Origin: Malania oleifera
Lineage: Eukaryota; Streptophyta; Magnoliopsida; Santalales; Ximeniaceae
Length of the DNA: 64,000 bases
Reading direction: 5' to 3'
NCBI RefSeq assembly: GCF_029873635.1
Contig: NC_080425.1
Coordinates: 46,105,678-46,169,677, forward strand
Shown here one piece after another: positions 18,562 through 64,000 of the stretch (positions within the stretch are counted from its first letter, which is position 1; every line of letters begins with the position of its first letter). The position numbers and the translations under genes were made by a program. The notes beneath the pieces are model-generated. The model searched no databases. It had not been told where the DNA came from and worked only from the letters and a program-made list of their open reading frames with translations.

Positions 18562-18997
18562 TGACGACCTGTTTAATTTCCACATTTTTTTTTTTATATT
18601 ACAAAATCGCAAAACTCAACTCAGCAGATCATAATTCATCCAGACCCGTGGGTACCAGGGATACATCAGAACACGTAATGGAAGCCTAAGCAGTAGGAAA
18701 CATACAATCACAATATTATAAATACGAAAACATCCATCATATTACCATAAATACCAAAGTCACTATATCCACTGTATTTCAGTATATATATCCCAAAAAC
18801 AAAATCTAGGGACATTTCCCACAAAATTCAACTATCCCTACTAAAACTTACCCTTCAAAGAGGGCAGACAAACAGCACTAGATCAGTAGGGCTTTTCCCG
18901 TTTTCCTATCTGGGGCTCCTAAAAAGTTTATAAAATTTTGGGGTGAGACACCTCTTAGTAAGGGAAATAAACTAATACCAGTGTGTGACAACATGAG
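18562..18997 (-). repeat. 5' LTR (right) of element C, first part
   Basis: Reads TGACGACCTG from 18562 on the plus strand, i.e. the LTR end of a minus-strand element. It carries GGGGTGAGACACCTCTTAG near 18941. It is interrupted at 18997/18998 by the Tat/Ogre-like element and resumes at 33406. The last five bases, ATGAG (18993-18997), are the target site duplicated by that insertion. Confidence 0.87.
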
Positions 18998-19039
18998 TGT
19001 AAACACCCCATTTTTACCCAGGCCCAATATATGTATTAC

Positions 19040-19076
<37 letters not shown>

Positions 19077-19120
19077 TTATTTATTCTTATTATTATTATT
19101 ATTATTAATTTTCACTAATC

Positions 19121-19167
<47 letters not shown>

Positions 19168-19332
19168 TTCTTTATTATTATTATTATTATTTTTCATTAG
19201 TATTATTGATATTACTTTTATTCATTTTTTTTTACGTCTATTTTATTGTTATTATTATTTATTATTTTCATTATTATTTTTAATTTTTATTATCATTATT
19301 ATTAGTATTTTTATTACTATTATTACTATTAT

Positions 19333-19363
<31 letters not shown>

Positions 19364-19552
19364 TTTCATTAGTATTATTATTATTACTTTTATTTTTATT
19401 TCTATTTATATTGTTTATTATTATTATTATTATTATTTATTATTTTCATTATTATTGACATTATTTTTAATTATTATTATTATTAGTATTTTTACCTTTA
19501 TTTATTACTATTATTATTATTATTTTATTTATTTATTTATCTTTGTTATTAC

Positions 19553-19589
<37 letters not shown>

Positions 19590-21522
19590 TCCTTATTTCT
19601 ATAATAGTAGTATATATTATTTCCAAAAAAAAAGAAAAATACCATAAACCCAAAAAAGGAAATGTTTTTAGGGTTTTTTCAAAATTATTTTTATAAGAAG
19701 GGGGAGGGCGCTGCACACACAAGGGAGCCGGGGGGCACACACAGCTAACAGGGGCCTGTTCTTCTTCTTCTTCTTCTTATTCTTCATCTTCTTCTTCTTC
19801 GCCTATACCCAGTCGTAGCCACACCACTCGCCACTCTGCAAGCCTGCTGCCAGCCGGTTGTTCTCTCTCAACAGCTCTCTTCTGCTCCACCACTCTGCAA
19901 CACCCACAAGCAGCCTCCCTCAACTCCGGTCATCCCCATTGTCTCTAGCCAACATCAGATAGCGGCCACAACCTCCCCTGTTCCAGTCACACACCCCACG
20001 GCCACGCTACGTCCTCGCCACCGCAGGACCACGCCATCGCCGCCTCACTCCGGGAGGCCCCATCTTATACCAAGAGCTCCGCAACAACCCCCCAGCAGCA
20101 ACCTGCTACCAACCCGCTGCACCACCACCGTCGTCATCCCCCAAGGCCGTCGCTCCTCAGACTCCGTCATCGTTGCCTCTCGTCACTTGCTCCCGCAGCT
20201 GTCGTCGGCGTCGTTGTCGTCTCCGGTATCCTCCCCTCTTCCAACCACCCGAAGCCACCTTCGTCCTCGGCGGTGAACCCTCTGTAAATCCCCTGCCCTC
20301 CAGCCAGCATCTCACAGAAAACACACACACACACACCCGCTCTCACTACGCATGCACAGTACACACGTGCACGTGTGTTTTATTTTTTATTTTTATTTTT
20401 TTTTTCATTCATTTATTTATTTATTTTTCTGTATCCTTTCTTATTTGGATTCGTTTTAATATTTAAAGCTTAAGGCTTCGTTGTATAGGTATGTATATTA
20501 ATATATTATTTGTCATGATATGTAGTTAATATTCGCATGTAGGCTTTTTATTGTATATAAGTTAAAATTTTAATATTGTGTTTACGATTTCATTTTACGG
20601 CTATGATATTTGTTTAGATTTTTTGTGATAATTATTTTAAATACTAATCGGTTCGTTTTCATTATTGTAGGATTTTGTTTTATTGCGGAGGTACGAGTTC
20701 TATTGTTTGATATTTTTAAGTGTGCCATATTAATGTTATATGTTTAGTGTTTAAGTTTTTTTTTATAGGACCCTATTTAGGCAGTATGATTAATATTTAG
20801 GGTTTTGGTTGTGTCTTTATTCATATTCATTGTTGTGTGTATTTAGGTTTTTTTTGGTTATTATTGCACTCATTTTATGTTTAATATTTGTATAATTAGG
20901 ATTGTGTATTATGGTAACCATACTGAATAAGGTGTATACTATTTTTAAAAATAAATCTTTTTCATAATTTCATTACTTTCTTGGCTTCTCAATGGTTTCC
21001 ATATTATTAACCCGTAAGTTTGATTTGTTTTTTTAGTTAGTGATTTACCAATATATGTAGTGTGCATATCTTTAATTGCATGTTAGTATCAAGGGTAATT
21101 TTTATATTGTCAAGACATGTATATTATTTTTTATTACCGTTATTAATAATATTTGCTATTATTACTATTAATATTATTACTATCATTATTATTTATTATT
21201 ATAATTTATCATTACTATTGTTGCGTTTATCAATGTTACCATTATCGTTACTATTATTCTTATTTATTGTTATTATCACATTTATCATTATTATTAAAAT
21301 TATTGTTACTAATATTATCATCAGCACTATTATCATTATTATTACTATTATTAGTTATTATTATAATTATTCCTTTTTGAGGTATATGTAGATTCAATTG
21401 TGTTATTTTTAATACTTGTATTAATATTATAATATTTTTATTAAATATTTTTGATATTTTATCCCTATGATTTTATTGTGGGGGTATGAGCCTTCGGGCA
21501 TCACGTACCCTAAGCTCTGAGG

Positions 21523-21568
<46 letters not shown>

Positions 21569-21897
21569 TTATTTATTTTTTACATGTATTTATAAATTCA
21601 TAAAAAGGAGTAGTTTAAAGAATTATTAGATTAACTTAGGGATAATTTCAAATTAATTAGGTACCGTTCGTAAGAACGGGCGCGTAGGGGGTGCTCGTAC
21701 CTTCCCCTCGCGTAACCGAACTCCCAGCCCCAACTCTGGTAATGTAGACCGATTCTACCCCTAACGGGGTAGTAATCATGTGTTCTAACCGTACTAAAGG
21801 TTAGTGGCGACTTCGATATTCCATGTTTTTCCTTAAAAATAAAAATAATTTTTAATTTCGCCGCCCGGGGCACATGCGCTCCTGGGACGCCGCGACA
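18998..21897 (+). repeat. 5' LTR of the Tat/Ogre-like element
   Basis: 2900 bp from TGTAAACACC to CGCGACA. In order it holds a (TTA)n-rich block (19031-19610), a GC-rich block (19690-20340) with a candidate TATA position at 20281-20290, an AT-rich 3' half with another TTA-rich block (21140-21370), a (TA)n run (21521-21564), and a GC-rich end. The 3' copy has a 31-bp stretch near 32165 that is missing here after 20710. Confidence 0.92.
20281..20290 (+). promoter_or_regulatory. Altered TATA-like site in the 5' LTR
   Basis: Reads CTGTAAATCC here, while the 3' LTR reads CTATAAATCC at 31734-31742. It lies at the 3' edge of the GC-rich block, about 30 bp before a cytosine-rich stretch, a position that fits a core promoter. 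The A-to-G change may weaken this promoter copy. This is inferred from position and sequence only. Confidence 0.4.
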
Positions 21898-21900
21898 GCT

Positions 21901-21918
21901 TGGCGACTCCGCTGGGGA
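21901..21918 (+). other. Primer binding site of the Tat/Ogre-like element
   Basis: TGGCGACTCCGCTGGGGA begins three bases after the LTR end. Sites starting TGGCGACTCC are found in Tat/Ogre-type elements, for which an arginine tRNA primer has been described. The tRNA identity was not checked here. Confidence 0.7.
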
Positions 21919-23769
21919 ATTAGAGAGTCGAGCCATTAATTAATTGAAAATTATCCCAAGTTTAAATTTAATAAAACTTTTAATTACTCTTTATTTTGTG
22001 AATATTGTAATTTGTAAATAACCTTGATTAATTTTAAATATTTTGCTTCCATAATTTACAAATAACCTTACTTAATTAAAATTATTTTGTTTCCTAATTT
22101 TGTGAATATTAATGGTAGATATTTTGTTTCCAAATATTCTGAATAGAGCATATTAATTGTAAGATATTTTGAATAAGTAGATATTTTGTATACTAATCGT
22201 AAATATTTTGTTTCCATAATTTTTTAAGTAAGCGTATTAGCTAACAATATTTTGTTTCCAAATTTCTTTTTTTGAATAAACATATTAATTGCATATATTG
22301 TGTTTCCTTATTTGTAGATAGTAGATATCTTGTTTTCATATTGTTTATAGCATGTGAATAAATGTGGGGGTAGTGGGATTAGGTTAAAAATTAAATTCAC
22401 ACACTCTCACGCTCTATACCCGAGCTTTCCTTACTAGGACTAGATAGGAGTGTAATAGCGTCAGTCCCTTCGTGGCAGAGCTTGATGGGACCCGCGAACC
22501 ACTCCACTCAGTGCGGGTTTTATCCGGACCCCTATGAGGGAGCATGAAATTCCAAACTCGGAACCTTTTGTCAATAGGGCTAGAACCTACCCGCACATAC
22601 TTGTCTATAGTCTTCCCTAACTAGGATCGTGTCATGACGAACCCTGGATATACATACCTACCCTAGGTTGGGACGTCCTTATCCCCATGCTGTCTATTGT
22701 ATATATGTTATGAAATACTTTGTATTATATCATGCATTTGACATATATTTAGACATACATACTACTTAGTTAGTATTCTGAAAAGCCCAATAATAAGACA
22801 AAGACCCATCCTTTCAAAAATGAAGCACTTGGCCCAAGTATTTTAAAATATGGGTCGGCCCAACCCTTTTCAAATAACTCGGACCCAATTTTTTGAGAAA
22901 TAACAAGTATAGGCCCAACCTTTTCCTACGTAAAAATTTGGCCCAGACCTGATTTTCCAAAAGGGGTCAAACCCAGATTTTCAAAAATGGGCTTCGGCCC
23001 TATTACCCAAAAATCCAAGCCAATATTTTCTAAACAATCCAAACCTAAGTCCTTTTAAAACTAGGGCCTGATCCCATCATGAAATATATTGAAGCCCATA
23101 TTTTAATATACTTGAGGCCCAAGTGCACATTAAAGACCACAAGCCCGTATTGAACGAATCCAGTGGGTTGACCAACCTGGGTCAACCCCAGCCTCAGATC
23201 ATAATTTGACCCTTCATAGAATCTGAGGAACATGGACCATCATCAAGGAGAAGAATGATTAAAGGAAGAATTGAATTGAAATTGTGATTGTCTTAATCTT
23301 GAAGTCTCTCATTAGTGGGACTTTTCCTAGAATGCTGACAAAGTAGTTAGTTAGGTTACATTGCATCCATGCATTCATGCATAATTTCACACATAATCAT
23401 GCATGATAGGTCACATGCATGGTCATATCTCTATTGGTATGTGTAATTGCACTAGTTACATCCATGCACAAAAATTCATTGCATCCATGCATTCATGCAT
23501 AATTTCACACATAATCATGCACGATAGGTCACATGCATGGTCATATCTCTATTTGTATGTGTAATTGCACTAGTTACATCCATGCACAAACATTTATTAC
23601 ATCTCATGGTCATGCATTAGATACTCACACATTCATGCCTTACATAATCATGCATTCAGTTCTAAAAAGGGAAAGTTTTGGTTTGCAGTGCCTAGCCACA
23701 GAATTTTTCTGAGCAAGCAACATTGAGACTGTCACGCATCAATACAATACCAGGAGAAGGGCCAAAGAA
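21919..23769 (+). other. Untranslated leader of the Tat/Ogre-like element
   Basis: No convincing coding frame. A more GC-balanced stretch at 22380-22690 holds the related blocks TTTCCTTACTAGGACTAG and CTTCCCTAACTAGGATCG. The stretch 22780-23130 has about ten GGCCCA or AGCCCA motifs. A 119-bp tandem duplication follows at 23359-23596. Some Ogre elements have an extra reading frame before gag; none is seen here. Confidence 0.7.
23359..23596 (+). repeat. 119-bp direct duplication in the leader
   Basis: Two nearly identical copies start with ATTGCATCCATGCATTCATG at 23359 and 23478. They differ at a few positions, for example GCATGATAGG against GCACGATAGG. The unit is rich in ATGCAT palindromes. 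Confidence 0.85.
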
Positions 23770-25214
23770 ATGAGTGAACAATTGGAAGGTAGAGTCCTGG
23801 GCATAGAACAAGGACAGGAAGAATTGATTGAAAAAATGAGTAAAATTATGGAATTGTTGATGAACAAAGGAAAAGCGGTACAAAATGATTCTGAAACAGA
23901 TATAGACCCTACTCATCCTCCAGGGTTCACTCTAAATCATGGACAAACATCAGCTAGACCGTCGGGCGTCATGGGGGATCCAATGCCAAATATGCCTCCA
24001 TTTATCCCAACTGTGCCAGCACAGGGGTTTCCAGTGGCAGGGACTTCCCCCTTAGCAACTCCTGATATGGGGATAAATAGATCTGATTCTGAGCATCGTT
24101 GTGACATATTGGAAGAGCGCTTGAAAGCAATTGAAGGGTATAATACAATTAACTCCGTTGACCCTAATGACCTTTGCCTAGTACCAAAGGTCACTCTGCC
24201 GCCAAAATTCAAGTTGCCGGATTTTGAAAAATTCGATGGGACCCACTGTCCTCGGACCCACCTGCACCTGTATTGCCAAAAAATGGCTGCACATACTGAT
24301 GATGAGAGGTTAATGATGCATTGCTTTCAAGATAGTTTGACTGGAGCAGCTATCAGATGGTACATTCAGCAAGATCGAGCTCGAATCCGTACTTGGAAAG
24401 ATCTGGCAAATTCATTTATAGCTCAGTACCGCCATGCGATAGAGATGGCACCTAATCGTATGACCCTGCAAAGCATGCAAATGAAACCTAATGAAACATT
24501 CAGAGAATATGCATATAGATGGAGGGATATGTCCATCCAAGTGAGCCCTCCTGTGGAAGATAGGGAGGCTATCTCCCTATTCGTGAATACATTAAAAGAT
24601 CCTTACTTTGGGCATCTCTTAGGGCAACTCCCCATGACTTCATGGATATTGTTTCTACCGGAGAGAGAATCGAAACAGCCATCAAAGTTGGGAAGGCCAG
24701 AAGTAGTGGCGAAGAAACCAATTCAGACAAGAAATGGACAAATAGGAAAAAGGATGATGAAACTCATATGATTCAAGGGCAACAATACCAAAGAGGTCAT
24801 AACCAAGGGTTTAGAAGAAATATTGTTAACCAGATAGCGCATACAGGCACAGGGTCTCAGTTTGTTCCCTATGGGCCTACGCTCACACAGAAAAATGTTC
24901 AGACACAGAGATATGGTCCTAATAGGGTGGAACCAATTCCCATGTCCTATTCGAAATTGCTCCCACAATTGCTCGAAAGAAGACTCATTTCAACAATCCC
25001 TGGAGTAGCCGTACGACACCCCCTACCACAATGGTATGACCCGGATGCTAAGTGCGCGTATCACTCAAATTCGCCGGGTCACACCGTTGACCGCTGTTGG
25101 ACATTTAAACACAAGGTACAGTCGTTGAGGGATGCCGGTTGGTTGGTCTTCGATGATACACAGCCAGGAGTCCATAGTGATCCCCTACCCAATCACGGGG
25201 AAGGAAATGGTTAA
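23770..25214 (+). pseudogene. gag of the Tat/Ogre-like element (one frameshift)
   Basis: Capsid/nucleocapsid protein that would form virus-like particles and package element RNA. The start at 23770 (MSEQLEGRVLGIEQGQ) follows AAAGAA and opens a helical N-terminus typical of Tat-lineage Gag. A Pro-rich stretch follows (about residues 48-105), then the capsid core with LPDFEKFDGTHCPRTHLH, RWYIQQDRARIRTWKDLA and MQMKPNETFREYAYRWRDM. Near 24630 the reading passes from frame 1 to frame 0 by a one-base change inside the segment after PYFGHLLG, and continues as FMDIVSTGERIETAIKVGK to 25214. The C-terminus keeps CAYHSNSPGHTVDRC, a Cys-His box of the form C-x2-H-x5-H-x4-C. About 481 codons are otherwise uninterrupted. 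No pol follows. A programmed shift is unlikely because no slippery site was recognised. Confidence 0.87.
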
Positions 25215-26025
25215 TATGTTGTACGAAAGACTGTGAGCCGAGGTCAGGCAAAAAAATATGTCAAGTTATGGATCCCGGAGTTCTCGTAAGGAGCCCAAAG
25301 GGAGAAAAAGTACACAAGGGGCAAGTTTTTGATTATCCAGTTTGTTTCATGTGATGATGTCATTTTAATTTTCGACAGTCTGTCGACACTATTATCTCAG
25401 CCAATTTCCCTTTCATCAATAAATTGAGTTATGCATTTTCTCATATCACTTGTGTCCTGAGTTCAAGTTGACCGAAAATTTGTTTGCTGATGTTTCGTGT
25501 AAAGATAAGGAAAATAATAATACCAATATTCATAAGCCAGAAAGTGATGTTAATTTTGAAAACCAAACACGGGAGGTGGAATCAGAAGAAGATAAAACGA
25601 TTTTCCTCACCCTATGAAGACAGATGTTGTGAAGAAATAAAGAATCTCGACGGAATTCAGTAAAATATATGTGCTGTGTCAAGAATTTCAAGTCAATTCA
25701 CTATTCATGTTTTGATCAAATGATAGATGACCATCTTTGGCCGATCAGTTATCCCTAAAAAGAACCAAATATTGATTTACCGATTGTTAACCAAGTTGAG
25801 CTTGAATGTTAAACTAGTCTTTTCTTAAAACCCAGTTCACCAAAAAGTTAACCTGGGTTGGGTCTCTTAGTGTTTGGCAAGTCATATGAGACAACAATGA
25901 GCTATCAAAATGATGGTAGGCCATTTTCTGCTACCCAAAAGAAATTCAAAGAAGAAATCTCTTGCAAGCCCTTTTGAGCCTGAAAAATTTATTTATTGAT
26001 TAACCCGTCAAAGGATCACACCCCA
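25215..26025 (+). other. Residue between gag and 3' region; pol missing
   Basis: In complete Tat-lineage elements protease, RT, RNase H and integrase would occupy several kilobases here. Only about 0.8 kb is left, with no catalytic motif. One acidic stretch, VNFENQTREVESEEDKT near 25545-25600, resembles the spacer found between protease and RT in Tat polyproteins; this match is tentative. The remainder has frequent stops in all frames. Confidence 0.6.
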
Positions 26026-27704
26026 CACTGGGGCAGTTTAAGAGAAATCAGTCTCAAATGAAGTCCAAACAAAAATGACAAAATCCCTTCATAGAGAAAA
26101 ACAAAAGGGAGCAGTAAAAGCAAATGGAAAGAGAAAGAAGAAAAGAGAAAGAAAATACGGGACATACTACGTATGTGATCCTTGACCAAATTACCCTTGA
26201 TGAAAATGATGATTTTGAGCCCTATTTAACTCTTTCTTTCTTTAACCTGAAACCCCCAGCCTAAATTACGGTCCAAATGAAGTCCTGACCAGATTGGTAT
26301 ACATCGTTGTCTCTAATGATTTGTCAGACTCAATGACGAGTCTGAACTACGTAATGACCTGATCCTGAAAAGGTACGTAGGCAGCTTGTTTAAATAACAA
26401 GTTCGGTCAACATCTTGCAAAACGTCCCAACTTGAACTGGGGGCGTAAAACATTATTTGGGGTGGTATTTTTGAGTTTTAGTTTCCATTTCATTCTAAAA
26501 ACCTGTATCCCTCAGCCTACGTTTCGTCTTGAGTCTTAAAGACCATCTTGAGATCAAAACATGAGTTGAACTTGACTAAACTAAAGGCAACGTTTAAATA
26601 CGTGAAATTTCTAATGGTTTCACAGTAGGATGAAACAAAAGAAGAGAGATGGCCATCGATAAATCTGGGACAGTCGAAGAAAAGATCAGCCATTCAGTTT
26701 GGTAAATTAACATCAATATCATATGGCTTTTGAATACTGGTATAAATTTTTCTTGTAATAGCATTGGAACATGGTAAAACATCTATTTTTGGGTGGTTGA
26801 CCTTTTGATTTCACAAGTTGATGTCATAATTGCATAATCATTCCTCATTTGAAAAAAAAAAAGGGGATGGATAGTCAAAGAGTTTCGGAACCACTAGTGT
26901 TCTTCTTATAGAGAAGGTCCCCATTAAGGAAATACGATGCACATAGAATCAGTCAATTTAACTGGGGCAAATGTCATGTCAGGCTTTAGAGATCTGCTTA
27001 TTCAAGAAGAATCTAACAACCAGGCCAAGATCCTTGGCAGATAAACTCATTTGGGGCAAGTTTCAGTTTCAGTGGGACTTATTCAAGCATCTTCTTATCA
27101 GATTGGATGAATAGGAAAACAGGGCCAAGAGCAGTTATAAATCCGTTCAACTGGGTAGATTCTGTGATGGAGTTTCATTTGAGCCAAGTTGACCACCTCT
27201 ATTAAGAAAATTGGGCCAAGATCAGTCATGGATCCATTCAGCTGGGGCAAGTTTCGAGGGAACCAAGGCAAAGGCAACATAGTCAAGATTAGAGGCACAT
27301 TGGAAAAAGAAAAGTTCATGCATCGTCATGCATTTCATGTACTACATAGAAAAGTGCATACATATTATACAACATGCTTGCATATCCCCATGTTCCATTG
27401 TCATATCAAACACCTTGCATGCATGTACCCCCACATAGCATCATTCATTCACACCTGTCTTGTCATCCATGTCTAAGTAATCCATGTTTCATCTTAAAAA
27501 AAAAATAAAAAAAAAAACAAACAAAAAGAAAAGGAAGAAGAAGAAAAGGGGTTGGGGCAACTGGCCTAGGTACCAATCGATCCATCTACCCTGAGACTGG
27601 GGCAACTGGCCCAGGTCTTATTCAAGTCTTTCGCTTCCAAACTGGGGCAATCGACCCTAGTCCAAAGTTTAGCATTCATTTTGAAGCTGGGGCTTTTGCT
27701 TTCA
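26026..27704 (+). other. Proximal 3' untranslated region with ACTGGGGCA motifs
   Basis: Non-coding. The motif ACTGGGGCA or a close form occurs near 26026, 26435, 26960, 27048, 27237, 27546, 27594, 27641 and 27683. It resembles the true polypurine tract at 30431. The block GTACGTAGGCAGCTTG near 26374 is of a type seen after pol in Tat elements. A purine-rich stretch lies at 26090-26155 and an A-rich tract at 27497-27550. Confidence 0.6.
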
Positions 27705-28190
27705 GAACCAAATTTGGTCGCATGACTCTTGGGATCCTATACTTGAGTATTCATCATCAATTCAAAATTTGATCCGGTTCTTGGTATCCTATACCTGAGT
27801 ATTCATCATCAAATTGACAATTCATCTAGCTTTAGGGATCCTATACCCGAGCATTCATCATCAATTCAAAATTTGATCCGGTTCTTGGTATCCTATACCT
27901 GAGTATTCATCATCAAATTGACGATTCATCTAGCTCTCGGGATCCTATACCCGAGCATTCATCATCAATTCAAAATTTCATCTGACTCTCGGTATCCCAT
28001 ACCTGAGCATTCATCATCAAATTGACAATTCATCTAGCTCTCGGGATCCTATACCCGAGCATTCATCATCAATTCAAAATTTCATCTGGCTCTTGGTATC
28101 CTATATTCAAGTATTCATCATTAATTCAAAAATTCCCATTGCAAACCGGGATTCTACACCCGAGTTGTCATTAACCATCAGTCCAAAATT
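27705..28190 (+). repeat. Array R1: 104-bp units, two hairpins each
   Basis: Core positions GGGATCCTATAC at 27731, 27835, 27939 and 28043 give an exact 104-bp period over about four copies. Each unit is two 52-bp halves sharing ATTCATCATCAA. One half carries arms CTCGGG and CCCGAG around ATCCTATA. The other carries GGTAT and ATACC around CCT. A bridging copy near 28147 has CGGG and CCCG around ATTCTACA. Confidence 0.9.
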
Positions 28191-28199
28191 CCCATCGAA

Positions 28200-29535
28200 T
28201 AGTTAGCAGACTCTTAGAATCCTACATCTGAGAAATCCTCGAGATCTTACACTCGAGTAATCAACAAACTCTCAGAATCCTACATCTGAGAAGTCCTCGA
28301 GATTCTACACTCGAGCAATTAGCAAACTCTTAGAATCCTACATCTAAGAAGGCCTCGAGATCCTACACTCGAGCAATGAGAAAACTCTCAGAATCCTACA
28401 TCTGAGAAGTCCTCGAGATCCTACACTCGAGCAATCAGAAAACTCTCAGAATCCTGCATCTGAGAAGTCCTCGAGATCCTACACTCGAGCAATCCACAGA
28501 CTCTCCGAATCCTACATCTGAGAAGTCCTCGAGATCCTACACTCGAGCAACTAGAAAACTCTCAGAATCCTACATCTGAGAAGTCCTCGAGATCCTACAC
28601 TCGAGCGATCAACAGACTCTCAGAAACCTACATCTGAGAAATCCTCGAGATCCTACACTCGAGTAATCAACAAACTCTCAGAATCCTACATCTGAGAAGT
28701 CCTCGAGATCCTACACTCGAGCAATTAGCAAACTATTAGAATCCTATATCTAAGAAGGCCTCGAGATCCTACACTCGAGCGATCAACGAACTCTCAGAAT
28801 CCTACATCTGAGGAGTCCTCGAGATCCTACACTCGAGCAATCAGAAAACTCTCAGAATCCTACATCTGAGAAGTCCTCGAGATCCTACACTCGAGCAATC
28901 AGAAAACTCTCAGAATACTACATCTAAGAAGTCCTCGAGATCCTACACTCGAGCAATCCATAGACTCTCCGAATCCTACATCTGAGAAGTCCTCGAGATC
29001 CTACACTCGAGCAACTAGAAAACTCTCGGAATCCTACATCTGAGAAGTCCTCGAGATCCTACACTCGAGCGATCATCAAACTCTCAGAATCCTACATCTG
29101 AGAAGTCCTCGAGATCCTACACTCGAGCAATCAACAGACTCTCAGAATCCTACATCTGAGAAGCCCTCGAGATCCTACACTCAAGCAATCAACAAACTCT
29201 TAGAATCCTACATCTAAGAAGGCCTCGAGATCCTACACTTGAGCAATCATTATACTCTCGGAATCCTACATCTGAGAAGCCCTCGAGATCCTACACTCGA
29301 GCAATCAAAAAACCCTCAGAATCCTACATCTAAGAAAGTCCTCGAGATCCTACACTCGAGCAATTAGGAGACTCTCGGAATCCTACATCTGAGAAGTCCT
29401 TGAGATCCTACACTCGAACAATCAACAAACTCTCAGAATCCTACATCTGAGAAGTCCTCGAGATCCTACGCTCGAGTAATCATTATACTCTCGAAATCCT
29501 ACATCTGAGAAGTTCTCAAGATCCTACGCTTGATG
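28200..29535 (+). repeat. Array R2: about 23 copies of a 58-bp unit
   Basis: CTCTCAG starts at 28385, 28443 and 28501 and CTCTCAG or variants follow every 58 bp. The unit is two diverged 29-bp halves. Half a has arms TCTCAGA and TCTGAGA, half b has CTCGAG and CTCGAG, both around the same 8-nt loop ATCCTACA. Linkers are AGTC and CAATCAACAAA-like. Several copies carry paired arm changes, others unpaired ones. It lies between R1 and R3 with no coding sequence. Confidence 0.93.
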
Positions 29536-29549
29536 CACATCATCCTCAT

Positions 29550-30275
29550 ACTATAGCACGGGTTCCTACACCCGATGCGAGTCTCTTTCCATAAACTATA
29601 GCTCGGGTTCCTACACTCGATGCAAGTCACCCTTAGTGAACTATAGCTAGGGTTCCTACAACCGGTGCAAGTCACCCTTCCGGGAACTATAGCTTGGGTT
29701 CCTACACCCGATGTAAGTCACCCTTCATGAACTATAGCTCGGGTTCCTACACCCGGTGCAAGTCACCCTTCCGTGAACTATAGCTTGGGTTCCTACACCC
29801 GGTGCAAGTCACCCTTCGTGAACTATAGCTCGGGTTCCTACACCCGGCGCAAGTCATCCTCCGTGAACTATAGCTCGGGTTCCTACACCCGGTGCAAGTC
29901 ACCCTTCGTGAACTATAGCTCGGGTTCCTACACCCGGTGCAAGTCATCCTCCGTGAACTATAGCTCGGGTTCCTACACCCGGTGCAAGTCACCTTCCATG
30001 CACTATAGCTCGGGTTCCTACACCCGGTGCAAGTCACCCTTTCGTGAACTATAGCTCGGGTTCCTACACCCGGTGCAAGTCATCCTCCGTGAACTATAGC
30101 TCGGGTTTCTACACCCGGTGCAAGTCACCTTCCGTGCACTATAGCTCGGGTTCCCACACCCGGTGCAAGTCACCCTTTCGTGAATTATAGCTCGGGTTCC
30201 TACACCCGGTGCAAGTCACCCTTCCGTGAACTATCGCTCGGGTTCCTACATCCGACGCAAGTCATTCTCATGTGC
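29550..30275 (+). repeat. Array R3: about 16 copies of a 45/46-bp unit
   Basis: CCTACACCCG recurs at 29701, 29746, 29792, 29837 and onward every 45 or 46 bp. The unit has arms CGGG and CCCG around TTCCTACA, flanked by GAACTATAGCT and GTGCAAGTCACCCTT. The 45-bp period leaves short frames open on both strands, giving repetitive peptides (SSGSYTRCKSP), judged incidental. Confidence 0.93.
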
Positions 30276-30430
30276 TCTCAATCATACATGCAAATCAGTT
30301 TTCACAAATCATTTTGGTCTCTTTTGTTACATTGGGCCCGGTCCAAAATCAGCGTCTTTATCTTTGCAGGCTTGTTGCTACAAATAACGTAGGAGAATTC
30401 CTACTTTCACTTTGAAGCGACAAAGCCTAC

Positions 30431-30443
30431 AAAGAGGGGCAGC
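30431..30443 (+). other. Polypurine tract of the Tat/Ogre-like element
   Basis: AAAGAGGGGCAGC lies directly before the 3' LTR start TGTAAACACC. It is the expected primer for plus-strand synthesis. Confidence 0.8.
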
Positions 30444-30505
30444 TGTAAACACCCCATTTTTACCCAGGCCCAATATATGTATTACTATTATTATTATTAT
30501 TGTTA

Positions 30506-30539
<34 letters not shown>

Positions 30540-30783
30540 TTATTTATTCTTATTATTATTATTATTATTAATTTTCACTAATCTTATTATTATTATTATT
30601 ATTATTATTATTTTCTTTATTATTATTATTATTATTATTTTTCATTAGTATTATTGATATTACTTTTATTTTTTTATTTTTTTTACGTCTATTTTATTGT
30701 TATTATTATTTATTCTTTTCATTATTATTTTTAATTTTTATTATCATAATTATTAGTATTTTTATTACTATTATTACTATTAT

Positions 30784-30823
<40 letters not shown>

Positions 30824-31009
30824 TTTCATTAGTATTATTATTATTACTTTTATTTTTATTTCTATTTATATTGTTTATTATTATTATTATTATTTATTAT
30901 TTTCATTATTATTGACATTATTTATAATTATTATTATTATTAGTATTTTTACCTTTATTTATTACTATTATTATTATTATTTTATTTATTTATTTATCTT
31001 TGTTATTAC

Positions 31010-31046
<37 letters not shown>

Positions 31047-33010
31047 TCTATAATAGTAGTATATATTATTTCCAAAAAAAAAGAAAAATACCATAAACCC
31101 AAAAAAGGAAATGTTTTTAGGGTTTTTTCAAAATTATTTTTATAAGAAGGGGGAGGGCGCTGCACACACAAGGGAGCCGGGGGGAACACACAGCTAACAG
31201 GGGCCTGTTCTTCTTCTTCTTCTTCTTCTTATTCTTCATCTTCTTCTTCTTCGCCTATACCCAGTCGTAGCCACACCACTCGCCACTCTGCAAGCCTGCT
31301 GCCAGCCGGTTGTTCTCTCTCAACAGCTCTCCTCTGCTCCACCACTCTGCAACACCCACAAGCAGCCTCCCTCAACTCCGGTCATCCCCATTGTCTCCGG
31401 CCAACATCAGACAGCGGCCACAACCTCCCCTGTTCCAGTCACACACCCCACGGCCACGCTACGTCCTCTCCACCGCAGGACCACGCCATCGTCGCCTCGC
31501 TCCGGGAGGCCCCATCTCATACCAAGAGCTCCGCAACAACCCCCCAGCAGCAACCTGCTACCAACCCGCTGCACCACCACCGTCGTCATCCCCCAAGGCC
31601 GTCGCTCCTCAGACTCCGTCATCGTTGCCTCTCGTCACTTGCTCCCGCAGCCGTCGCCGACGTCGTTGTCGTCTCCGGTATCCTCCCCTCTTCCAACCAC
31701 CCGAAGCCACCTTCGTCCCCGGCGGTGAACCCTCTATAAATCCCCTGCCCTCCAGCCAGCATCTCACAGAAAACACACACACACACCCGCTCTCACTACG
31801 CATGCACAGTACACACGTGCACGTGTGTTTTATTTTTTATTTTTATTTTTATTTTTCATTCATTTATTTATTTATTTTTCTGTATCCTTTCTTATTTGGA
31901 TTCGTTTTAATATTTAAAGCTTAAGGCTTCGTTGTATAGGTATGTATATTAATATATTATTTGTCATGATATGTAGTTAATATTCGCATGTAGGCTTTTT
32001 ATTGTATATAAGTTAAAATTTTAATATTGTGTTCACAATTTCATTTTACGGCTATGATATTTGTTTAGATTTTTTGTGATAATTATTTTAAATACTAATC
32101 GGTTCGTTTTCATTATTGTAGGATTTTGTTTTATTGCGGAGGTACGAGTTCTATTGTTTGATAGTTAAATGTAACAAGTTTTTATTGTTGAATATTTTTA
32201 AGTGTGCCATATTAATGTTATATGTTTAGTGTTTAAGTTTTTTTTTATAGGACCTTATTTAGGCAGTATGATTAATATTTAGGGTTTTGGTTGTGTCTTT
32301 ATTCATATTCATTGTTGTGTGTATTTAGGTTTTTTTTGGTTATTATTGCACTCATTTTATGTTTAATATTTGTATAATTAGGATTGTGTATTATGGTAAC
32401 CATACTGAATAAGGTGTATACTATTTTTAAAAATAAATCTTTTTCATAATTTCATTACTTTCTTGGCTTCTCAATGGTTTCCATATTATTAACCCGTAAG
32501 TTTGATTTGTTTTTTTAGTTAGTGATTTACCAATATATGTAGTGTGCATATCTTTAATTGCATGTTAGTATCAAGGGTAATTTTTATATTGTCAAGACAT
32601 GTATATTATTTTTTATTACCGTTATTAATAATATTTGCTATTATTACTATTAATATTATTACTATCATTATTATTTATTATTATAATTTATCATTACTAT
32701 TGTTGCGTTTATCAATGTTACCATTATCGTTACTATTATTCTTATTTATTGTTATTATCACATTTATCATTATTATTAAAATTATTGTTACTAATATTAT
32801 CATCAGCACTATTATCATTATTATTATTACTATTATTAGTTATTATTATAATTATTCCTTTTTGAGGTATATGTAGATTCAATTGTGTTATTTTTAATAC
32901 TTGTATTAATATTATAATATTTTTATTAAATATTTTTGATATTTTATCCCTATGATTTTATTGCGGGGGTATGAGCCTTCGGGCATCACGTACCCTAAGC
33001 TCTGAGGGAA

Positions 33011-33041
<31 letters not shown>

Positions 33042-33400
33042 GTATACATATATATATATATATTTATTTATTTATTTATTTTTTACATGTATTTATAAAT
33101 TCATAAAAAGGAGTAGTTTAAAGAATTATTAGATTAACTTAGGGATAATTTCAAATTAATTAGGTACCGTTCGTAAGAACGGGCGCGTAGGGGGTGCTCG
33201 TACCTTCTCCTCGCGTAACCGAACTCCCGGCCCCAACTCTGGTAATGTAGACCGATTCTACCCCTAACGGGGTAGTAATCATGTGTTCTAACCGCACTAA
33301 AGGTTAGTGACGACTTCGATATTCCATGTTTTTCCTTAAAAATAAAAATGATTTTTAATTTCGCCGCCCGGGGCACACGCGCTCCCGGGACGCCGCGACA
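30444..33400 (+). repeat. 3' LTR of the Tat/Ogre-like element
   Basis: 2957 bp, same order of blocks as the 5' copy. It keeps CTATAAATCC at 31734 and has a (TA)n run at 33010-33062 with internal changes. An apparent 204-codon Pro/Ser-rich frame at 31310-31924 covers its GC-rich block and is not considered a gene. Confidence 0.92.
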
Positions 33401-33974
33401 ATGAGTATTCTATGTTATACATATACCATACAGAACATATTCAGTAACTGTTTGTCAAATCCGAGAAAACATATATATCATCAAAACATGGCAGAACATA
33501 CTGCATTTTCATAAACATATATCATCTCATATAATAATAATAATAATACAAAAACATTCATGGTAGGTTAATTAACTGTTGTCATGTATTACTCCCACAT
33601 AACTGGGTTATGTGGCTCGAAGGCAGGACTTGACAATGGTTGGCTGACCACTGCCAAGTCAAAAGTACAGTCTGTAAGTCTGATGGGTCTACCTGACCTG
33701 GTCCTTAGACCAGGGGTGCTCACACTTCTTAAAACCACATCGACCATCCAATCTCACACCACTCCGTACAGCGGCGTTAACACAAATATCATGATCATGA
33801 AGATCATGGACACATAACAACAGTACCGTGTAAGTGCTAGCCTAGACCAAGCCAACTAAGTTCTGATATCATGTAACATATACTAAAATTGTGATACATG
33901 GATATTTCATATCATTAATTATCAAATCATTCATATCATTTTGCATATATACATTTATCATGAAAATTATCGAC

Positions 33975-34190
33975 TCGTACGCTAGTATTACACATTTTAC
34001 ATAGCTCGGTCCGTACGCCGACAAATCATATCTTAGCACAGTCCGTAAGCTGGCAAATCATTTTCATAACTCAGCCCGTATGCTGGCAAACATATCCATA
34101 GCTCAGACTGTACGTTGACAAATCATACACATAGCTCAGCCCATACGCTGGTAAATATATTAAAATCTCAACCCATATGCCGGTTTTTCC
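33975..34190 (-). repeat. Tandem units inside the right LTR of element C
   Basis: About seven units of 28-38 bp built on CTCAGCCCGTACGCTGGCAAAT, strongly diverged. The left LTR of element C has a different array at the corresponding place (12350-12495). Confidence 0.7.
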
Positions 34191-52239: not shown

Positions 52240-52690
52240 TTAGTGACGGTTTTGAATTAGTCGCTATATCTGCCGTTACTAATACTTATTAGTGACGAAT
52301 GTTTCAAACCATCACTAATAATAGAGTATTAGTGATGGATTAAAAACGTGACTAAAAAAGCCAAGCCTGTCACTATAAATTCTATGCCGGCTCAATCAAA
52401 AATCGTCACTAAAGCCATAGTATTAGTGACGGTTTTAAATTCGTCACTAATGCTCTATTATTAGTGACGGTTTGAAAATCGTCACTATTGCTCACAGGCA
52501 ACTATTAGTAACGGTTTTCAAACCATCACTAATACTATAAAACAGTCATTAATACTATATTATTAGTGACAGTTTGAAAACATTCACTAAAACTCTTTAA
52601 AAAAAAAAGACAATTATTAGTGACGGTTTTAAAACCTTCACTAATACTTAAATTTGACAATTAGTAGTGACAATTTTAAAATTGCCACTA
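52240..52690. repeat. Left subterminal repeats of the CACTA element
   Basis: About ten inverted pairs of ATTAGTGACGGTTT and AAACCGTCACTAAT with variants. Such repeats bind the TnpA-type protein in characterised CACTA elements. Confidence 0.85.
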
Positions 52691-55579: not shown

Positions 55580-56770
55580 GAGCATCAATGATGGTTTCAA
55601 AACCGTCACTAATACCCCATTATTAGTGACGGTTCTCCCAAACAGTCACTAATACCCTTAAATATTTTTTTTTAATATTTTTTAAATAAAAACACTAGTA
55701 GTGACTGTTTCAAAATCGTCACTAATACCCCCTTATTAGTGACGGTTCTCCCAAACCATCACTAATACCTTTAACTATTTCTTTTTTAAAAATTTTTAAA
55801 TGAAAACACTAGTAGTGACGGTTCCAAAACCATCACTAATACCCCCTTATTAGTGACAGTTCTCCCAAACCGTCACTAATACCCTTAACTATTTCTTTTT
55901 AAAAAATTTTGAAATGAAAACACTACTAGTGACGGTTTCAAAACCGTCACTAATACCCTGTTATTAGTGACGGTTCTCCTAAATCGTCACTAATACCCTT
56001 AACTATTTCTTTTTAAAAAAATTTTAAATGACAACACTAGTAGTGACGGTTTCAAAACCATCACTAATACCCTTAACTATTTCTTTTTTAAAATTTTTTA
56101 AATGAAAACACTAGTAGTGACGGTTTCAAAACCGTCACTAATACCCCCTTATTAGTGACGGTTCTCCCAAACTGTCACTAATACCCTTAACTATTTCTTT
56201 TTTAATATTTTTTTAATAAAAACACTAGTAGTGACGGTTTCAAAAGCATCACAAATACCCTTAACTATTTCTTTTTAAAAAAATTTTAAATGAAAACACT
56301 AATAGTGATGATTTCAAAACCGTCACTAATACCCCCTTATTAGTGACGGTTCTCCCAAACTGTCACTAATACCTTTTAACTATTTCTTTTTTAATATTTT
56401 TTAAATAAAAACACTAGTTGTGACGGTTCAAAACTGTCACTAATACCCTTAACCATTTATTTTTTAATATTTTTTAAATAAAAATACTAGTAGTGACAGT
56501 TTCAAAATCGTCACTAATACCCTAGAATCGTCACTAATATTTTCCCGAAAAAATTTTCGCGTGGAAATTGTTTACCGCCATGTTTATAGTGACAAAAGTG
56601 TTAGTAACGGTTTTAAATCGTCACTAATAGTGTCGTATTAGTGACAGCTACTAAAATCGTCACTAATGCTTAGACTATTAGTGACGGTTCTTAAAAACCG
56701 TCACTAATACCAACTTTTAGTGGCGAAATTGAATTCGTCACTAATACTTTCGTCACAAAAAACCAGTTTT
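55580..56770. repeat. Right subterminal repeats of the CACTA element
   Basis: About ten units of 60-120 bp, each with a TAGTGACGGTTTC and GAAACCGTCACTA-type hairpin followed by CTTAACTATTTCTTTTT. It is longer and more regular than the left side. Confidence 0.9.
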
Positions 56771-63357: not shown

Positions 63358-64000
63358 ATATAGTCTACAAACATATACACCATAGTTCATCCACGCAAGA
63401 AAACAATACATACATTTGATCTCGGTACGTGGCCTATATAGGACTACTGCGTACTACACAGTATGTGGCCCATATAGGACTATTGCGTACTACCCAATAC
63501 GTGATCCACATAGGACTACTGCATATAACACAGTACATGGCCTAAATAGAGCAACTATATACTACCCAATACGTTGCCCACATAGGACTACTGCGTATGA
63601 CACAGTACGCGACCCACATAAAGCTATTGCATATAGCATAGTACGTGGTCACAGTACGTGACACACATAGGGCAACTGCGTACTTCACTATACGTGGCCC
63701 GACGTAGGGTAGCTACGTACTTCACTACACATTTACAGTCACAACAAACAGTATTCACAACCAACCAATATTCACCACCAAACAATGTTCACAGCCAAGT
63801 AGTATTCACAAATAAACTACATTACCAAACAGGCAGTATTCACAAGCAAATTGTATTCACAACCGAACAGTATTACAACCAGTTAATTATGAAAGGTTAT
63901 TCTCATGCCACACGATTTCTTTTTCCCCAAATATGATTTTTAATAAAAAAAAATTATTATTTTCAATTGCTTAAACCATTCAGAAAATCATACTAAAATT
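63358..64000 (-). repeat. Gypsy LTR (minus strand), second part, to window end
   Basis: Resumes after the solo LTR. It is dominated by a tandem array (63421-63725) and then by short repeats of CAGTATTCACAACCAA (63735-63875). The LTR end is outside the window. Confidence 0.7.
63421..63725. repeat. 36-bp tandem array in gypsy LTR
   Basis: About eight units built on TACGTGGCCCACATAGGACT and ACTGCGTACTACACAG, with a 36-bp spacing between the first copies at 63426 and 63462. They are diverged toward the end. Confidence 0.82.

Follow-up and report, generated by a model that had tools for sequence, protein, structure and literature searches.

Introduction

Retrotransposons of the Tat lineage (Ogre, Retand) carry family-specific, hypervariable tandem arrays between the coding region and the 3' long terminal repeat (LTR), and these arrays can expand into satellite DNA, as described in two reports (PMC11963269 = Vicient 2025; PMC7004042 = Vondrak 2020). 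The function of such arrays is given as unknown in the first report (PMC11963269), and the second hypothesises that they come from abnormal strand transfer (PMC7004042). The Retand LTRs surveyed in PMC11963269 are 315-1194 bp long. Neither main text uses the term hairpin, secondary structure or stem. Here we describe an LTR retrotransposon of Malania oleifera that has gag and lacks pol and that appears to be related to the Tat lineage. It lies in a stretch of 64,000 nucleotides of contig NC_080425.1, and we refer to this whole stretch as the window. Like the Tat-lineage elements, it has tandem arrays between its coding region and its 3' LTR. Unlike the arrays in the accounts above, its three unrelated arrays, R1, R2 and R3, have a loop-conserved hairpin in common, and its LTRs (2900 and 2957 bp) fall outside the size range given for the surveyed Retand LTRs. 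On balance, we favor the reading that the arrays are a repeated stem-loop module of the sense RNA whose loop and pairing were under selection while the family was active.

Results

Three tandem arrays are built on one hairpin

An initial annotation of the window had described three tandem arrays, each centered on an inverted repeat with a constant loop and arms that change together. Tandem Repeats Finder (TRF) and a check of the sequence confirmed the arrays, the quoted loops and arms, and the changed pairs at the coordinates it gave. The arrays and a hairpin between two of them are as follows.

27726..28135, + strand: array R1 (TRF, 52/104 bp), loop ATCCTATA
28144..28165, + strand: single linker hairpin AACCGGG-ATTCTACA-CCCGAGT between R1 and R2, loop at 28151
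28210..29527, + strand: array R2 (TRF, 58 bp), loop ATCCTACA
29550..30264, + strand: array R3 (TRF, 45 bp), TCGGG-TTCCTACA-CCCGG

Most hairpins in R1-R3 have stems of 4-8 bp and the 8-nt loop (A/T)TCCTA(C/T)A. There are 71 loop-matching hairpins in R1-R3 plus the linker (8 in R1, 1 in the linker, 23+23 in R2 and 16 in R3) rather than the approximately 46 originally claimed. Each R2 unit consists of two hairpins, TCTCAGA/TCTGAGA and CTCGAG/CTCGAG. The stem CTCGGG/CCCGAG reported for R1 is present and is a good one, although it alternates with a weaker stem (e.g. CTTGGT/CCTGAG), and the R3 stem is made of four Watson-Crick (WC) pairs and a U.G pair. Within R1-R3, every stem with at least 6 WC pairs has an 8-nt loop (34/34); in the LTRs, the leader plus gag and the gag-to-R1 pieces this is true of 8 of 102 such stems. 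An Rfam scan of the window yielded no matches above the gathering score in 64,000 bases. We rejected coding repeats as an explanation of the arrays because periods of 58 and 52 bp are not multiples of three.

The loop is conserved and has a single orientation

For comparison we used 38 other R2 places in the genome, ten 3.5-kb pieces placed by their gag, and three relatives of the element (L061, L070, L071). The family is large, with 150 of 4051 candidates scored in the gag search and 39 of 443 candidates, containing 72 matches, scored in the R2 search, both being lower bounds. The same hairpin was observed in further arrays with units of 44 bp (L033) and 66 bp (L035 and L036), and L051 carries it on the minus strand in an array that resembles R3 and has units of 44 bp. 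In this last array the arms are GGA/TCC in two and GGA/TTC in two of six listed units, where R3 of the window has GGG/CCC. The hairpin also occurs singly, for example as ATCGGG-ATCTTACA-CCCGAT in six loci and as CTCTCATG-ATCCTACG-CATGAGTA in L053. In L037 (G000:C11:18197000-18206999), R2 has 118 units spanning 6.9 kb, an apparent step from a retrotransposon array to a satellite.

We scanned 85,565 bases, from the first hairpin to the polypurine tract, for stems of at least 6 WC pairs without regard to the loop. An 8-nt loop was found in 1018 of the 1130 stems, and 964 of these 1018 loops carried CCTA, CTTA or TCTA. The shuffled control, with one shuffle per locus, contained 326 stems, 34 with an 8-nt loop. 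Variation per site was determined with units picked by everything but the loop (942 for R2, 142 for R1 and 175 for R3). Loops varied at 2.5% in R2, 2.1% in R1 and 1.9% in R3, and linkers at 14.9%, 10.9% and 15.6%, respectively. When only A/T sites were considered, the values for R2, R1 and R3 were 1.7, 1.6 and 0.7% in loops and 10.0, 9.0 and 10.5% in linkers. In a separate count of stems with at least 5 WC pairs and an 8-nt loop (n=1179), 1130 had the loop in the sense orientation, none had it inverted and 49 had another loop. Uninterrupted stems reach 8 bp at most.

These data bear on two other explanations. The first is that the hairpins are a by-product of array growth in which they stall reverse transcriptase, and strand switching both makes arrays and copies arms, with no selection involved. 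This agrees with the presence of several different arrays centered on the hairpin. However, templated copying of arms should sometimes invert the loop, which none of the 1179 stems shows, and the ceiling of 8 bp on uninterrupted stems is left unexplained, as is a loop variability in R1-R3 that is 5-8 fold below that of linkers. We consider this explanation improbable. The second is a site that acts at the level of DNA, such as a cruciform or dyad bound by a host protein, with a role in chromatin, insulation or recombination. The satellite-like R2 of L037, with its 118 copies, would fit such a site, as would dyads that are perfect (e.g. CTCGAG-N8-CTCGAG), but a protein binding a dyad would be expected to constrain the arms and let the spacer vary, which is the opposite of what we observed, and the loop is always in the sense orientation. 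A DNA-level site is very unlikely.

Arms covary between hairpin types

Covariation of the arms between hairpin types with flanks that can no longer be aligned is real. Loop and position, without regard to pairing, were used to locate hairpin sites, which were then grouped into types by their flanks; this gave 87 clusters, of which 40 were loop-consistent and 30 remained once a position filter and a stricter rule for the loop had been applied. If arms had merely been inherited, a type's own arms and arms exchanged between types should pair equally well. In the 30 types, own arms formed 4.50 and exchanged arms 3.55 WC pairs of 7 (0 of 100,000 permutations), and in the 18 types present in at least two loci the values were 4.94 and 3.99 of 7 (P=4e-5). 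For a non-redundant set we started from 32 types (the 30, X27 and the minus-strand type of L051) and dropped 16, including X27. With the 16 types kept, one per similar flank and one added by hand, own arms formed 4.75 and exchanged arms 3.63 pairs (P=1e-5). The hand-added type is that of L051, included after its pairing was seen; it contributes to this figure and not to that for the 11 non-redundant types in at least two loci (5.09 vs 3.99, P=0.0011). All these P values are optimistic because hairpin types are not fully independent.

When the partner arm was slid by one or two bases, pairing over positions 3-6 fell to 0.9-1.3, compared to 2.9 in register. Between types, identity averaged 0.82 in loops, which is partly a result of how sites were selected, 0.57 in arms and 0.29 in flanks. 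Transversions are found among the double changes, as in ATCGGG/CCCGAT (6 loci) compared to CTCGGG/CCCGAG, and in CTCATG/CATGAG of L053.

Folding of array RNA

When 871 bases of R2 were folded as sense RNA, they formed mostly beads on a string with z=-11.05. The antisense strand gave z=-2.22, a difference that is due in part to the sense strand being G-poor, so that its shuffles fold less well. Folding of short pieces was mixed, with z of -3.09 for an R1 unit and of -3.73 and -3.05 for two R2 units, and weaker values for another R1 unit (-0.35), an R3 unit (-1.05), the linker hairpin (-1.87) and the first 145 bases of R1 (-0.26).

The host element and its relatives

The arrays lie in an element with the following features.

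18993-18997 and 33401-33405, both flanks of the element: 5-bp target duplication ATGAG
18998..33400, + strand: gag-only LTR retrotransposon (LTR alignment, flanks, TG...CA ends)
18998..21897, + strand: 5' LTR, 2900 bp (alignment of LTRs, TG...CA ends)
21900..21917, + strand: primer-binding-site-like stretch TTGGCGACTCCGCTGGGG
23713..25211, + strand: gag in two frames, stop-free at 23713-24768 and 24564-25211
30389..30404, + strand: hairpin GTAGGA-GAAT-TCCTAC, shortly 5' of the polypurine tract
30431..30439, + strand: polypurine-tract-like AAAGAGGGG, close to the 3' LTR
30444..33400, + strand: 3' LTR, 2957 bp (alignment of LTRs, TG...CA ends)

The two LTRs, their TG...CA ends and the short target duplication on either side are those of an LTR retrotransposon. 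TTGGCGACTCCGCTGGGG resembles the complement of the 3' end of a tRNA that we take to be tRNA-Arg. The first gag frame matches PF03732 (E=3.6e-11), and a profile search of the second found no domain match. With PF03732 present and no pol frame, the coding content is that of a TR-GAG-like element. In a survey of stop-free frames, with no profile search for degenerate pol, the internal region outside gag had none above 129 aa, and the longest antisense frame was 129 aa. An antisense TRP28 ORF is a feature of Retand as surveyed in PMC11963269. Divergence between the LTRs (Kimura two-parameter distance, K2P, 0.0123 over 2872 aligned sites) corresponds to an age of approximately 0.5 My at a substitution rate of 1.3e-8. 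The element is young, and it appears to be Tat-related.

A polypurine tract identical or very similar to AAAGAGGGG is present in 37 loci. The hairpin at 30389-30404 is perfect in 15 loci with the loop GAGT and in 4 loci with the loop GAAT, and is imperfect in some others; its 5' arm, GTAGGA, is complementary to the core TCCTAC of the array loop. Each LTR contains a single copy of TGTAGGAT, which is exactly complementary to the R2 loop (20666 and 32117), and the element has no further copy; we estimate that approximately 0.2 would be expected by chance. As regards pairing between loops and LTR, BLAST of eight fetched pieces gave no match to the LTR place that holds TGTAGGAT. Kissing through self-complementary loops was rejected, the loop not being a palindrome. 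A link to viral contigs was also rejected; it consisted of an exact 17-mer in four of their loci, which by our estimate is probably due to chance.

Outside this retrotransposon, the window has other arrays of hairpin units at 52399-52652 and 55589-56709, made of TAGTGACGGTTT...AAACCGTCACTA inverted repeats. At 33993-34180 and 63425-63648 there are short arrays whose units resemble dyads, but no stem of 6 WC pairs was detected in 33993-34180 or 63425-63650.

One group of relatives has a 1108-aa open frame and at least six copies among the matches listed (e.g. C3:3139374, C1:40599829, C152:3392). One of these is L061, which encodes RVT_1, RT_RNaseH, RVT_3 and integrase domains (two RNase H types) and a gag 78-81% identical to P0012 and P0008; the gag of the window element shares 49% identity with P0012 and 53% with P0008. 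Another relative is a sister family with a 511-aa frame, at least nine copies of which are among the matches listed (e.g. C12:909500, C496:8588). It looks gag-only, its frame is 63% identical to P0008, and 6 kb of one copy, L070, were examined. This copy has the same polypurine tract as the window element and nearly the same LTR start. It carries a 66-bp array with the loop TTCTTACA and a 46-bp array with the unit CTCGGG-TTCTCAAA-CCCAGTGC and an R3-like linker. The place of the hairpin seems to have given rise to another array in L070 with a different loop.

Changes within R2 and other evidence against selection

Several results weigh against selection on the loop and its pairing. Changes within R2 had been taken in the initial annotation as covariation of the arms. 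Its T-A pairs are present (loops at 28335, 28741 and 29205), but the three units share the linker AAGGCC, so that a single event within this element, rather than three, seems to lie behind them. The pair it had noted is CG in 482 of 738 distinct R2 units, TA in 104, TG in 81, CA in 43 and otherwise in 28. Compared with a null of columns evolving independently on a FastTree tree (1653 column pairs), the best R2 stem pair (A4) ranked first of 1653 yet had E=5.7, the remaining 13 stem pairs ranked 91st or lower, and mutation events on the tree gave no consistent excess of compensation. We therefore rejected covariation within R2 as proof, as it does not rise above shared history. The proposal of a structured element with a constant loop and covarying arms is supported by comparison of hairpin types across many copies, and does not follow from changes internal to R2.

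The R2 stem variants are mostly C>T or G>A; CG and CHG sites account for many of them, which is the pattern that decay would leave in silenced copies, and the four commonest forms of single change in R2B leave U.G in 104 and A.C in 85 hairpins. These observations, together with tree events that are not consistently compensatory, are in line with shared ancestry and methyl-cytosine decay, where one ancestral hairpin with CG and CHG sites in both arms acquired matched C>T and G>A changes by chance. As a general explanation this is quite unlikely, since own arms pair better than arms exchanged between types, some double changes are transversions, and the A/T sites of the loop, which are immune to such decay, are far more conserved than those of linkers.

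Among R2 haplotypes found in at least two copies (82 of 738), there are 42 U.G and 12 A.C changes, vs 537 and 349 among singletons (P=0.014, with units selected by loop match and haplotypes that are not independent). This hints at selection on the sense strand. Across the 16 types, positions 1-7 have nine U.G and six A.C departures, so the choice of strand rests on the shared R2 haplotypes plus the orientation of the loop. The type test, with its partly dependent types, also weakened when G.U pairs were allowed, to 5.50 vs 5.11 (P=0.014) for the 18 types and to P=0.085 for the 11 types.

Loops had been expected to vary less freely than linkers, which is true of R1, R2 and R3 (1.9-2.5% vs 10.9-15.6%) and is not true of the 66-bp array of two relatives, where loops vary at 7.5% and linkers at 4.5% (20 units, two loci). 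In the sister family the loop has changed. The 46-bp array of L070 keeps GGG/CCC but has the loop TTCTCAAA in 17 of 17 listed units, and this limits the sense in which the loop can be called constant. For two of its units the best fold spans more than one unit and is not a local hairpin, and the 66-bp array of L070 folds no better than its shuffles (z=-0.02). Such hairpins are absent from two of the ten gag-placed 3.5-kb pieces (L058, L060), from 9.9 kb of the pol-bearing L061 from within gag onward, and from 6 kb after gag of L071, which is closer kin of P0008. A further gag-placed piece, L055, has degenerate hairpins only.

Discussion

In the explanation that we favor, R1-R3 would be repeats of a single stem-loop module in an LTR retrotransposon that is gag-only and Tat-related. 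Each module would form a short stem (4-8 bp) in the sense RNA with an 8-nt loop (core UCCUAY), and the linkers between modules would fold poorly. During activity of the family, selection would have acted on the loop and on the ability of the arms to pair, leaving the letters of the arms free. Local tandem duplication may have amplified whichever hairpin was available, giving rise to the differing periods and linkers of R1-R3 and of the 44-, 46- and 66-bp arrays in relatives.

An RNA-binding partner that reads the loop would produce the pattern seen here, in which the loop is fixed, the arms pair but are otherwise free, the linkers are free as well, and there is one orientation. From this we infer that selection acted on RNA, not DNA, and that a loop-reading protein was bound many times over. 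Our best guess for this reader is a Gag/nucleocapsid particle, followed by an RNA-export or stability factor; a host RNA-binding protein is conceivable. Because the element has gag and lacks pol, its RNA must enter particles alongside pol supplied by another element, and many RNA handles could aid such entry. Packaging in particular is a putative function that we suggest only tentatively. It is likewise possible, though rather doubtful, that the loop-read stem-loops are a multivalent handle that draws gag-only RNA into the particles of a partner, or into an export path, and that selection on the number of handles builds the arrays in Tat-type 3' regions and, through them, the satellites.

Membership of the Tat lineage is defined by the phylogeny of reverse transcriptase (RT) and by the presence of an additional RNase H of archaeal type. 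The window element has no RT; its relative L061 carries RT domains. TR-GAG elements are non-autonomous and have LTRs, sites resembling a primer-binding site and a polypurine tract, gag, and no pol frame. The window element has all of these features and differs in that the region before its 3' LTR is filled by hairpin arrays. In the iron-responsive element, the MS2 operator and retroviral packaging hairpins, RNA is recognized through a loop. Our hairpins would be like these in working only, having a fixed loop and stem letters that are free if paired, and we claim no relation of sequence. BARE2 RNA is packaged in BARE1 particles and has conserved packaging signals, according to PMC3735527, in whose text the term stem-loop does not occur. 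The likeness to BARE2, as described there, is that of a retrotransposon short of some proteins whose RNA is packaged by a partner, as we propose for the window element; the two differ in that BARE2 cannot make Gag and the window element lacks pol.

A literature search, with subscription papers (e.g. Macas 2009) outside its reach, found no report of covarying hairpins in arrays of this kind. Arrays at this place, and their expansion into satellites (compare L037), are already known from Tat-lineage elements, and the hairpin design seems to be new. Because different arrays share one covarying hairpin, a cis-acting RNA role for them is now testable, and hairpin-centered amplification offers a reason why arrays are repeatedly born between the coding region and the 3' LTR.
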